Shown here: positions 3,828 through 56,111 of the stretch, one piece after another
How positions within the stretch are numbered: position 1 is the first letter of the stretch
Layout of the letters: the number at the start of each line of letters is the position of its first letter
Origin: Parvularcula mediterranea
GTDB lineage: Bacteria; Pseudomonadota; Alphaproteobacteria; Caulobacterales; Parvularculaceae
Assembly (NCBI RefSeq): GCF_013085255.1
Contig: NZ_JABFCX010000002.1
Coordinates: forward strand, 1,044,501 to 1,108,500
Reading direction: 5' to 3'
Length of the DNA: 64,000 nucleotides
Program-made: the position numbers and the translations under genes
Notes under the pieces: model-generated
Databases searched by the model: none
What the model was told of the DNA's origin: nothing
The model's input: only the letters and a program-made list of their open reading frames with translations

Positions 3828-4450
3828 GCTTCCTCTGGCAGCGATTTGGGCTCGGCGAGCAACAGCCGGATGCCGGGGACGAGGCTGACGGCAATGACGG
3901 CCGCAGCGCCGAACAGGTAGACTTCAGGGCGACCGGCAAGGATCGGAATGACGCCGACGGAGGCCATCGCCATATAGGCAGGGGTCTTCAGCCACCTCGC
4001 TCCAGACAGGCTAGCCGTGGTGTAGAGCGCTATGCCGTATCCGGTGAAAGCGACGGCAAGGATGTAGTCGAAGGCGACGACACTCACCTGCCCGGTCGCT
4101 GTCCCAAAAAGGATGCCCGCGAAGAAGATCCCTATGGTGAAGCCCGCGATCATCCAGCTAGCAGCCTCTGCCTTGTTGCCAGCTGCGCCCCGGCCTGGCT
4201 TGCGCTTCAGGGATCTGAGGAGGAGCGGCATCCCTACGGCGATAGCGATGCCGAAAGCGATCCAGATGAAGGCGATTGTCACCGGAGGCAGGCCGAAGCG
4301 GCCATCCAGCACCATCCACTGGCCGGCATAGGCGAGGGGGATCAACGTTCCGAAGAAGACGAAGAAGCGGCCGCCGAGAAGTGGCGCGGAGCTTCCTGCT
4401 TCGGCCATATCTCGCATGAAGGCGAGGTCGTCGCGGGTCTGCTCGTTCAT
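3824..4450 (-). CDS. Polytopic membrane protein paired with winged-helix regulator
   Basis: About 208 residues with five to six hydrophobic segments (FFVFFGTLIPLAYAGQWMVL, VTIAFIWIAFGIAIAVGMPL, MIAGFTIGIFFAGILFG, then three more) and a short hydrophilic N-terminus beginning MNEQTRDDLAFMRDMAE. The ATG is favoured by AGGAG 6 bases upstream. No enzyme motif is seen. Because it is coupled to a winged-helix regulator, it resembles the membrane-protein/regulator pairs common in alphaproteobacteria, whose role is largely undefined. Confidence 0.75.
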   Translation of the reverse strand: MNEQTRDDLAFMRDMAEAGSSAPLLGGRFFVFFGTLIPLAYAGQWMVLDGRFGLPPVTIAFIWIAFGIAIAVGMPLLLRSLKRKPGRGAAGNKAEAASWMIAGFTIGIFFAGILFGTATGQVSVVAFDYILAVAFTGYGIALYTTASLSGARWLKTPAYMAMASVGVIPILAGRPEVYLFGAAAVIAVSLVPGIRLLLAEPKSLPEEA

Positions 4451-4539
4451 CACTGGCTCCTGTCCTTGGCAGAATAGTTTGTAATTCAAACCATCGGATA
4501 TTGCAACCCCTGTTTCCCGTCGGGCGAACGGTCTAGACG

Positions 4540-5061
4540 ATGCTTATGAGCCGCCTTGCCGTCTTCTCTCTCGCTGCCCTCGCGCTCGCATCCTGTGCCG
4601 AGGAGCTGCTGGTCGCGCCCTCCGCGCCGGGGCTTGAGGGTGCGCTGACCGATGGCCGCTGGGAGCATCGCCAGAGGACGGCGGCCACTTTCTGGCCCCC
4701 GACGGTCGGCGAGACGCGGTTCTCCGAAATGATCGACTTCACCTGTGTCGAAGGCGCCAAGGGTCAGGTCCGGGTCGTGATTACCGGCGATACCGAGAAG
4801 ACCGGCCTATGGATCGCGGGCGAGCGCATGAGCGAAAAGACCGTGGTGGTCGAAACCGCCCGGGGCTCGACGGATCTCGCATTCTCGGCAGGTGAGCTGA
4901 TGCTGCCTTTCAGGGTGGTGCGAACCGATGCTGACTGGCTCCAGCCGCTGAAGACCCCTGGTACGCGGGTGGCGATCAATGCCTATGGCGACCGCATCTA
5001 CCGCTTTGACGTGACCGAGAAGCTGAGCCGGACCCTCAGCCGTTGCGGGAGCCCCCAATGA
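4540..5061 (+). CDS. Predicted lipoprotein of unknown function
   Basis: A 173-residue envelope protein. The N-terminus is a lipoprotein signal (SRLAVFSLAALALASCAEE) with the lipobox LASC, so the mature protein starts at the Cys near residue 19. The rest is a soluble, mostly beta-rich domain with two further Cys. A second ATG two codons downstream is an equally possible start; neither has a clear ribosome-binding site. The stop overlaps the start of the next gene as ATGA, so it is co-translated with the alpha/beta hydrolase. Confidence 0.7.
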   Translation: MLMSRLAVFSLAALALASCAEELLVAPSAPGLEGALTDGRWEHRQRTAATFWPPTVGETRFSEMIDFTCVEGAKGQVRVVITGDTEKTGLWIAGERMSEKTVVVETARGSTDLAFSAGELMLPFRVVRTDADWLQPLKTPGTRVAINAYGDRIYRFDVTEKLSRTLSRCGSPQ

Positions 5062-54418: not shown

Positions 54419-55194
54419 ACAGCCCCGCATCTCTCCTGAGGGGCGCAAAGCGCCTCGTGGTGAAGGTCGGCTCGTCACTCGTCGCGGGGGGCGACATCTT
54501 TCGCCATGACGGGTTTGCGGGCGACCTTGCTGGCTTGAGCGCCGAAGCGGTCCTTATCAGCTCTGGCGCTGTGGCGCTCGGGCGGCGGGCCGCGCCTGAC
54601 GTGGCAGGTGAGACCCTGGCGCAAAGGCAGGCGCTTTCGGCCATCGGCCAGCCGCTCCTCATGGCGACGTGGGAGCAGGCGATGGGTGGGGCCAACGCGC
54701 GGACGGCGCAGGTCCTCCTGACCCCTGACGTGACGGATGATCCCAAGCGGCGGGAGAACGCCAAAGCGACCATCGAAGCGCTTCTGAGCGCCGGGATGCT
54801 GCCGATCGTCAACGAGAACGACACGGTGGCGACGGACGAGCTGCGCTATGGCGACAATGACAGGCTGGCGGCGCAGACGGCGGCGCTGGTCGGGGCGGAC
54901 CTGCTGGTCCTTCTCTCCGACGTGGAAGGCTATTTCGACGACGACCCCGGCAAGTCACCGGGTGCCAGGCACTGGCCGGTGATCCCACCTGAGGTGCTCA
55001 GCGATCCTGCAGCGCACATCCCGCAGGAAGCCTCCGCCCTCGGCACCGGCGGCATGCGGTCGAAAGTGGAAGCAGCCCGCCTCGCGGTGGAGGCAGGCAT
55101 TCCGGTGCTGATCGGTTCGGGGAGGGGGCAAAGGCCCCTTGGCCGCCTCGCGGGCGGTGAGGGCAGGGCCTCGATGGCCCTGCCGCAGGGTTAG
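54415..55194 (+). CDS. proB: Glutamate 5-kinase, short form without PUA domain
   Basis: First enzyme of proline synthesis, phosphorylating glutamate. The amino-acid-kinase motifs are complete: RLVVKVGSSLVAGG, LISSGAVALGRR, VNENDTVATDELRYGDNDRL and ALGTGGMRSKVEAARLA. The protein ends at 259 residues, about 100 short of the common form, and lacks the C-terminal PUA domain. The start is a GTG overlapping the pyrF stop. proA is not adjacent. Its stop interlocks with that of the convergent EF-hand gene (TTAG). Confidence 0.92.
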   Translation: MNSPASLLRGAKRLVVKVGSSLVAGGDIFRHDGFAGDLAGLSAEAVLISSGAVALGRRAAPDVAGETLAQRQALSAIGQPLLMATWEQAMGGANARTAQVLLTPDVTDDPKRRENAKATIEALLSAGMLPIVNENDTVATDELRYGDNDRLAAQTAALVGADLLVLLSDVEGYFDDDPGKSPGARHWPVIPPEVLSDPAAHIPQEASALGTGGMRSKVEAARLAVEAGIPVLIGSGRGQRPLGRLAGGEGRASMALPQG

Positions 55195-55964
55195 CCGGCG
55201 CGCGGAGGCATCGGCGGCTCAGGCATCGGGCGCGAGCGCATCTCCGCTTCGAGGTCAGCGAAAGCCATCTCGATCTCGGACTGGGTGGCGTTCGGGTCCA
55301 CCGTGCGGCTCTCGGCCATGATGGACAGCGACCGGCGTGCTTGGTCCTCAATGTCGTAGGTGACGATTTCGAGGGTGATCACCCGGCTCATCTCGCCGTC
55401 TCGTTCGATCGTTTCGACCGAGCGCTTGGAGAAGCTGCCCTGGGGCTCGAACTCTTCAGGGGACAGGGTGCCGCTCTTGTCGGTGTCGAGGGCTTCGAAA
55501 AGGCGGCTCATGCCATCAGCCGAGCGCGGGGCACGCGGCGCGGGCGGGGCTTCCATATTGCCCTTGCGCTTGACGATACGGACTTCCTCGACCTCGACAT
55601 TGTCCTCGGTCATCTGCCCGCGATCCGCGAACTCCGACAGGCTCAGCGCACCGTCGCCATTGCGGTCATAGGCGCGGAACGTTGAGTCATCGGCAAGGCT
55701 GACACCGGTGCCGAAGGTGGCGGCCGCAAGGGCTGCACCGATGCCGCCCGCAGCGGTCTTGAAGGGGTTGTTCTTAAACATGGACATAAGGCTTCTCTCT
55801 TCCTGGGTTGGAAGGGCCTGGGCCTCGAGGTCGTCGGCGATGAACTGCCTGACGATATCCGACGCGGTGACACCGCGCTCCTTGCAAGCCTCCATGAAGG
55901 CCCGCTTCTGGGTGTAGGGAAGCCTGATCTCCAAGCTCTCGGATTTCTTTTCCGGCCGTTTCAT
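55191..55964 (-). CDS. Ribbon-helix-helix plus EF-hand protein
   Basis: A 257-residue protein of odd make-up. Residues 8-48 resemble a ribbon-helix-helix DNA-binding unit (SLEIRLPYTQKRAF then RGVTASDIVRQFIADDL). A hydrophobic stretch at about 68-91 (TAAGGIGAALAAATFGTGVS) follows. Two canonical EF-hand loops come next: DRNGDGALSLSE near 100 and DTDKSGTLSPEE near 160, each with correct Ca2+ ligands. GAGGAG 6 bases before this ATG supports the full-length start, yet an internal ATG (55787 or 55781) would give a signal-peptide protein ending VSLA-DD. Either a membrane calcium-responsive regulator or two products are possible. Confidence 0.75.
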   Translation of the reverse strand: MKRPEKKSESLEIRLPYTQKRAFMEACKERGVTASDIVRQFIADDLEAQALPTQEERSLMSMFKNNPFKTAAGGIGAALAAATFGTGVSLADDSTFRAYDRNGDGALSLSEFADRGQMTEDNVEVEEVRIVKRKGNMEAPPAPRAPRSADGMSRLFEALDTDKSGTLSPEEFEPQGSFSKRSVETIERDGEMSRVITLEIVTYDIEDQARRSLSIMAESRTVDPNATQSEIEMAFADLEAEMRSRPMPEPPMPPRAG

Positions 55965-56111
55965 CATCGTCTCCTCATCGAGGTCCCGGGGCCCGGGTGA
56001 GGAAAGCCGAGCAGGAACCAGCGTCCCGAAGGTAGTGAATGTGCGCCCGGATGCACGTGAAATGCTGTCCGGACGCGCAGAATTGCTGCAGTTTTCGTGC
56101 CTGAGAAGGGC

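Follow-up and report, generated by a model that had tools for sequence, protein, structure and literature searches.

A ribbon-helix-helix protein with a signal-like helix and EF-hands: a proposed membrane-tethered autoregulator in Parvularcula mediterranea and other Alphaproteobacteria

The DNA analysed here (hereafter the window) is a stretch of 64,000 nucleotides from Parvularcula mediterranea (contig NZ_JABFCX010000002.1, positions 1,044,501 to 1,108,500), and coordinates below are positions within it. On its minus strand, at 55191..55967, lies an open frame of 258 codons plus a stop whose product joins a ribbon-helix-helix (RHH) DNA-binding unit to a hydrophobic, signal-like helix and two EF-hand loops; on the plus strand a stop is present and the frame is not open. 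We propose that this gene encodes an RHH autoregulator tethered by its own signal helix, with an exported and probably cleaved EF-hand domain whose state would set expression. We assign this reading a probability of about 0.68. The strand, an operator-like palindrome and minimal forms of the protein encoded beside a second signal peptidase gene all go beyond the first-pass annotation of this DNA.

Ribbon-helix-helix, signal-like helix and EF-hands in one chain

The RHH unit (residues 1-52; 55812..55967, minus strand) is followed by a linker with two methionines (M61 and M63), the hydrophobic stretch (71-92), a first EF-hand (101-112), a spacer, a second EF-hand (161-172) and a further domain (176-245). 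The RHH assignment was drawn from a profile, an alignment, AlphaFold2 helices and nonsynonymous substitution rates (dN). When a profile of 15 family N-termini was compared with the PDB, the top match, and the only convincing one, was ORF56 (E=2e-4); VapB26, MazE7, a CopG/Arc/MetJ antidote, ParG and DinJ took places two to six (E 0.008-0.08), and place seven was unrelated. The first six are solved RHH-type proteins or antitoxins. On its own, the window protein stayed below threshold in Pfam (RelB, 16.4 of 22.4 bits), and single relatives, at loci L111 and L032, reached the RHH_1 or NikA-like cut-offs, with L111 passing RHH_1 at 26.1 versus 20.5 bits. An AlphaFold2 monomer placed the two RHH helices at residues 18-31 and 35-51 with a predicted local distance difference test score (pLDDT) of ~90-97; the ribbon strand, which needs a dimer, was not formed in this model. 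With ORF56 as top match and both helices modelled, the first ~50 residues are RHH-like, as the first-pass annotation had read them.

Among 61 aligned members, K7, K8, R15, K21, S36, R40 and D101 were invariant and E13 was nearly so. E13 and R15 alternate with strand residues expected to be buried and, judging by known RHH structures, would face the DNA. Between the window gene and its closest relative (L002), dN was lowest in the RHH part (0.144 versus 0.409 in the C-terminal part), while the synonymous rate (dS) was ~0.8 in both. The dN/dS ratio of the RHH part was ~0.1-0.2 against L002-L004 and 0.3 against L005. The RHH part is therefore under the strongest purifying selection and is the best conserved part among relatives in the genus; a broken N-terminal frame in relatives, which had been raised as a possible objection, was not found.

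The hydrophobic stretch (55692..55757, minus strand) ends in S-L-A before D93, which by sequence and family comparison resembles a signal peptidase I site. A P-[small]-x-A end follows the helix in 79 of 120 members compared to 24.8 expected, which agrees with the suggestion that the helix reads as a cleavable signal (S-L-A-DD). AlphaFold2 confidence was low over this stretch of the window protein. Both EF-hand loops, DRNGDGALSLSE (residues 101-112; 55632..55667) and DTDKSGTLSPEE (residues 161-172; 55452..55487), each on the minus strand, are canonical and above their Pfam cut-offs (EF-hand_5, E=1e-12), so that "textbook" was a fair description of them; calcium binding is predicted. EF-hand_5 was matched at E<=0.1 in 59 of the 61 aligned members. 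The chain continues with a beta-beta-beta-helix domain (residues 176-245; 55233..55442, minus strand) modelled at pLDDT ~87-97. A structure search with the window model gave no PDB match at E<=0.001, and the C-terminal fold is without a good match.

To follow the architecture beyond the window we searched other genomes at three levels. The family search matched 14 of 62 genomes; the order search, made with the N-terminal profile at E<=1e-5, matched 114 of 299, some plain RHH proteins included; and the class search (E<=1e-12) matched 4 of 289. Two of these four genomes lie outside the order, and both have RHH-helix-EF proteins. A named collection yielded 134 relatives, of which the best 80 were kept, with record titles that include Parvularcula, Ponticaulis, Henriciella, Hyphomonas, Kordiimonas, Caulobacter, Brevundimonas, Phenylobacterium and Sphingomonas. 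For counting, 155 distinct alphaproteobacterial frames were reduced to 123 (one per 75% cluster), and domain counts use 120. A hydrophobic segment follows the RHH unit in 119 of the 123 clusters; the four without it are the window protein, just under threshold, and three plain short RHH proteins. EF loops were present in 90 of 120 members (4.5 expected from shuffles), and 30 had none by the pattern used. The order of RHH unit, helix and EF-hands in one chain, which had been noted in the window alone, is thus conserved across many non-redundant relatives, including some outside the order. As read from these sequences, the RHH unit with its signal-like helix forms the constant part and the EF-hand is the commonest outer part.

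When EF-less relatives were run against Pfam, TonB_C was found in both L058 and L082, and the others tested had no named outer domain. In the Henriciella-type loci L058, L060, L078, L082, L083, L086 and L089 (~4000-4600), a TonB C-terminal domain apparently replaces the EF-hands after an unchanged arrangement of RHH unit and helix, as judged by Pfam on L058 and L082. The compact forms (29 aligned, 103-137 residues) consist of the RHH unit, the helix, a PSxA-like motif and an EF loop, with 27-56 residues beyond the motif. P80, A83, D97, D101 and E108 are invariant in all 29.

An operator-like palindrome and the pairing with a second signal peptidase gene

A word found enriched before 36 compact genes led to a ten-base palindrome, TGTCCGGACA. 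Allowing one mismatch at most, 71 of 122 members have it within the 300 bp upstream; in 51 of them it is exact and in 62 it lies at -54 to -120, and it ranks first (71) of the 1024 ten-base palindromes, the next being TGTCATGACA (18). Judged by how often it occurs in all the loci retrieved, a frequency that these same sites raise, 0.078 per 300 bp would be expected. The 122 members are those with at least 150 bp upstream, three plain RHH proteins among them, with the nearest ATG or GTG chosen as start; splitting them by C-terminal type loses two, as two-member loci share a key. Members with and without EF-hands both have TGTCCGGACA, which suggests that the site follows the RHH unit. The presence of the palindrome upstream of 71 of 122 members makes DNA binding by the RHH unit likely, and the RHH half is likely to be a sequence-specific regulator.

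The palindrome scan placed the operator-like site of the window gene, TGTCCGGACG, at 56066..56075, ~100 bp upstream of the start codon and one mismatch from TGTCCGGACA. At 56044..56053, 22 bp nearer the gene, is an imperfect further copy, which reads CATCCGGGCG on the gene strand; in the family logo a second half-site likewise stands ~22 bp downstream of the first. Exact copies of TGTCCGGACA number five in genome G052 (one of them at the gene) compared to one for the reversed control, and the eight in G113 include one at the gene. One exact copy in the window's genome is flanked by a secE-like gene on one side and, on the other, by a gene whose product looks secreted (C1:621076-621085; L225 position 1501; names from reading); this copy may be due to chance, as there are three exact copies in the genome versus two of the reversed control. 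The palindrome was also present in all five TonB-type loci tested (L060, L078, L082, L086 and L089). In L166, L177, L047, L156, L184, L032 and L193, TGTCATGACA occupies the usual place of TGTCCGGACA; this variant is possibly a switch in RHH specificity that could be matched to RHH residues.

The positions just after the second half-site are T-rich, and scans of the upstream regions recognised no promoter. Because RHH autoregulators usually repress, and because of these T-rich positions, the RHH unit would probably repress the promoter rather than activate it. An alternative is that the protein is simply an autorepressor attached to a secreted calcium-binding part, where the RHH unit would only limit the amount of product and no signal would cross the membrane. 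Such an arrangement agrees with an operator at the gene's own promoter, of which the T-rich positions could be part, and it requires no sensing. It leaves unexplained, however, why an RHH unit should be fused to an export signal and why the family is paired with a second signal peptidase gene; we regard it as possible but somewhat unlikely.

This pairing was seen in 34 of the 80 loci (best 80 of 134), where a signal peptidase gene, lepB, adjoins the RHH gene; all 34 encode compact forms (up to 161 residues). In Caulobacteraceae-type genomes it is a minimal protein, with RHH unit, helix and one EF loop, that is encoded next to the second signal peptidase I gene. The two genes are convergent except in L107 and L112, where lepB follows on the same strand. 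Neighbour clustering was noisy, a simple open reading frame caller having retained antisense frames, and lepB was then confirmed by tblastn. At least two strong LepB were found in all 11 lepB-adjacent genomes examined; three large-form genomes and the window's genome have one only. In family f3 (60 genomes) the RHH gene is carried by 18 of the 23 genomes with two strong LepB versus 0 of the 37 with one (Fisher 4e-11), a tally that excludes G099, a weak hit (E=1.4e-6); with G099 it reads 18/5 versus 1/36. Within f3, the same holds for genus g11 (8 of 8 two-LepB versus 0 of 18 one-LepB genomes). By coordinates, the RHH gene and lepB are within ~2 kb of each other in all 18 f3 genomes. Genomes with two LepB are also common in families f4 and f5, where the loci examined showed no pairing; the co-occurrence is limited to f3. 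Two strong LepB without a detected RHH-helix-EF gene occurred in G107, G174, G198, G214 and G274, and G707, likewise without a detected RHH-helix-EF gene, has lepB2 with the tandem site; the neighbourhood of the second lepB was inspected in G107, G174 and G214.

The palindrome also precedes this second gene, lepB2, in 39 of 40 loci, in 27 of them as a pair 20-23 bp apart. The count drops one of 41 loci for its short upstream region, and the 40 include related loci; among 39 distinct upstream regions, 38 carry the palindrome. Two non-adjacent lepB copies lack the palindrome. The genomes G290 and G278 each have a single exact TGTCCGGACA, located before lepB2; the single one of G054 lies before the RHH gene (reversed control 2, 3 and 2, respectively). 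When the tandem site alone was searched in 199 genomes, there were 18 hits, compared to 5 genomes for the reversed control; beside the 18 were both genes in 15 cases, lepB2 only in one and neither in two. This search is only partly independent of the discovery set, to which 6 of the 18 genomes had already contributed DNA; both genes occur in 9 of the remaining 12. Of 41 lepB2 products, 38 retain the serine motif and all 41 have a lysine motif of the form xKR (a narrower lysine pattern in 8 of 41).

Two further explanations bear on what the exported half might report. In one, the chain is an uncut, single-pass calcium-to-DNA receptor in which calcium outside alters binding by the RHH dimer inside; for a minimal form, dimerisation would bring two single EF loops together on the outer side. 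EF positions 1, 5 and 12 are invariant in the 29 compact members, most compact chains have one EF loop, and RHH domains dimerise. The mean net charge in these 29 is +1.2 before the helix and -0.1 after it, and from this change from basic to near neutral we infer insertion with the N-terminus inside. What points to calcium as the signal is the conservation of the EF loops. On the other hand, the helix has a signal-peptidase-like end in 79 of 120 members, 30 of 120 have no EF loop (two of those tested carry TonB_C), and EF-less members have the palindrome too; we consider an uncut receptor unlikely.

In the other, the chain would be a test substrate of signal peptidase. When the peptidase is scarce, the uncut RHH-helix chain would persist and alter TGTCCGGACA promoters, chiefly that of the second lepB, and cutting would lead to loss of the RHH stub. 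This is consistent with the invariant P80 and A83 of the compact members, with a lepB gene alongside, a second copy in every such genome examined, the f3 co-occurrence and a common operator, and with a lepB2 product that retains its serine and lysine motifs. However, large forms like that of the window have no lepB alongside, two-lepB genomes are common without the pairing in other families of the order, cleavage is itself a prediction, and the Caulobacteraceae-type genes converge and do not form an operon. We are doubtful of this explanation as it stands. A related version, in which an RHH factor that is itself a signal-peptidase substrate would read export and cleavage capacity and, in Caulobacteraceae-type genomes, control lepB2 via tandem TGTCCGGACA sites, with calcium loading as a possible gate, is put forward tentatively.

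Internal start and proposed mechanism

A second start within the gene had been suggested by the first-pass annotation, and here the family and the window gave different outcomes. A Shine-Dalgarno hexamer with its end at -9 to -5 of the internal ATG was present in 41 of 70 members, compared to 275 of 3879 (7%) background internal ATGs (Fisher 4e-28). The 70 are the members with a Met between the RHH unit and the helix, and the Met used was the last before the helix, chosen blind to context. These 41 well-placed hexamers are spread over all three frames (19, 14 and 8), and the excess survives when cluster means are used. In a second test on 120 of the 123 clusters, with the best-site Met picked in data and shuffles alike, real linker sites averaged -5.5 kcal/mol versus -3.9 in protein-preserving codon shuffles (76 members); synonymous shuffles leave relatedness in place, and it is the placement test that adds cluster means. 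Two class-level relatives outside the test have CGGAG or AAGGGA before an internal ATG. The linker Met is missing in 44 of 120 members and present in only 3 of 29 compact forms, and GTG or TTG starts in members without it gave no consistent signal.

In the window gene, the internal ATGs are M61 (55785..55787, minus strand) and M63 (55779-55781, minus strand), the latter adjoining a Met kept in L002-L005. The stretch before M61, CAGGAAGAGAGAAGCCTT (55788..55805, minus strand), is only weakly Shine-Dalgarno-like, with a pairing energy (dG) of -5.6 that is no better than in codon shuffles (p=0.77). None of the four genes formed by the window gene and L002-L004 passed the placement test. An internal start is therefore supported in part of the family, but in the window gene it is doubtful. 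It could be speculated that the Shine-Dalgarno-like stretch is instead a translation pause that aids membrane targeting, as has been proposed for E. coli membrane proteins (PMC4359368), and members without a linker Met do have a similar best linker site (-6.8 versus -7.2); however, this is improbable, as the stretch is positioned relative to the ATG in 41 of 70 members versus 275 of 3879 background sites and in all three frames.

In the tethered autoregulator that we favour, the RHH unit would dimerise in the cytoplasm and bind tandem TGTCCGGACA-type palindromes before its own gene and, in Caulobacteraceae-type genomes, before the second signal peptidase gene that lies next to it. The helix would insert with the N-terminus inside and the EF-hand domain would be exported, after which signal peptidase I would probably cut the exported part off after the SxA motif. 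Whether the chain is intact, inserted and calcium-loaded or not would determine the amount of RHH at the membrane or on the DNA, and expression would thereby follow what becomes of the exported half. Many relatives may additionally make the exported protein alone from an internal start. A tethered regulator and a secreted product, which had been offered as alternatives, are not exclusive.

Several observations weigh against this proposal. Foldseek with a compact-form model gave weak RHH matches (best E 0.78) alongside weak EF matches. Hydrophobicity is weak in the 71-92 stretch of the window protein, with a 15-residue mean hydropathy of 1.49, just under threshold. TGTCCGGACA is absent from 51 of 122 members, of which 7 carry TGTCATGACA instead; the window operator has one mismatch, none of the three exact copies in its genome (G000) is at the gene, and exact copies are near the reversed control both there (3 versus 2) and in G113 (8 versus 6). 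Finally, no match to the window gene was found in 5 of the 9 further genomes from the genus, which suggests that the gene is dispensable. A vestigial gene or annotation artefact, with RHH unit and EF-hand joined by chance, is nevertheless very improbable: nothing was found in its favour, and the open frame, the domain order kept in relatives and the low dN/dS of the RHH part (~0.1-0.2 for L002-L004, 0.3 for L005) all contradict it. The architecture is real and not a chance fusion, and the regulator is probably real.

The neighbours of the window gene, whose names here come from reading without a search, are housekeeping-like, as they are in three genus relatives. A proB-like gene converges with it, the 3' ends overlapping by four bases, and an acyltransferase-like gene lies ~140 bp upstream on the same strand. 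L033 and L035 share the order nth-pyrF-proB, window gene, acyltransferase, rph; so does L034, except that it has no proB match. A toxin-antitoxin system was considered and rejected, as no toxin or partner gene adjoins in the window or in the three relatives. Elsewhere in the family, paired RHH-helix genes adjoin in L049, L135, L148, L191 and L194, with differing C-termini in L135 and L194. In the Kordiimonas-type loci L038, L039, L040, L048, L054, L073 and L075, the RHH-helix-EF gene is followed by a convergent gene for a lipoprotein-like protein; among the distances listed, the three nearest are -5, 2 and 2 bases. Genes resembling gltA and gltX (again named by reading) are near the RHH gene in L050, L052, L057, L059, L066 and L092 and in L056, L071, L101 and L105; this neighbourhood in Sphingomonas- and Brevundimonas-type loci suggests one old locus.

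Relation to known regulators

The family is apparently undescribed. In the open-licence PMC literature we found no paper combining "ribbon-helix-helix" and "EF-hand", also with "transmembrane" added, and nothing on an RHH-helix-EF family among the matches listed. Direct calcium-to-gene signalling in bacteria is poorly understood.

The DNA-binding domain of CadC/ToxR-type regulators is a winged helix; the N-terminus of the present family is RHH-like. CadC and VtrA/VtrC are described as one-component and co-component membrane-tethered regulators with a helix-turn-helix DNA-binding domain (PMC9214523). Like them, the window family would combine a cytoplasmic DNA-binding domain, one membrane helix and an extracytoplasmic domain in one chain, and it differs in its RHH unit, EF-hands, cleavable-looking helix and, often, internal start. 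Transmembrane regulators would then include a family that uses RHH in place of the winged helix and has the EF-hand as its most frequent outer part. With a named operator, minimal forms of 103-137 residues and a paired second signal peptidase, the proposal is testable in a Caulobacter-type strain.

Soluble RHH repressors offer a second comparison. MetJ, Arc and CopG are likewise RHH dimers on tandem short palindromes, with likely autoregulation, but they are soluble, whereas here the RHH unit heads a secretory protein. The RelB/DinJ antitoxins share a sub-threshold RHH sequence match; the window gene differs in having no adjoining toxin gene, and the helix and EF-hands take the place of the toxin-binding tail. 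Secreted or periplasmic EF-hand proteins such as lanmodulin and the XopAW-like proteins have canonical EF loops as well but are not known to carry an RHH unit, and the window protein scored far below both NCBIfam cut-offs (lanmodulin 14 of 135 bits, XopAW 31.5 of 120 bits). Compared to these systems, the RHH-helix-EF protein is new as a variation on the one-component transmembrane regulator. A peptidase sensor, if true, would be more than that: a one-protein feedback sensor of protein secretion which, if cleavage is the switch, would match signal peptidase supply to demand within a single protein.
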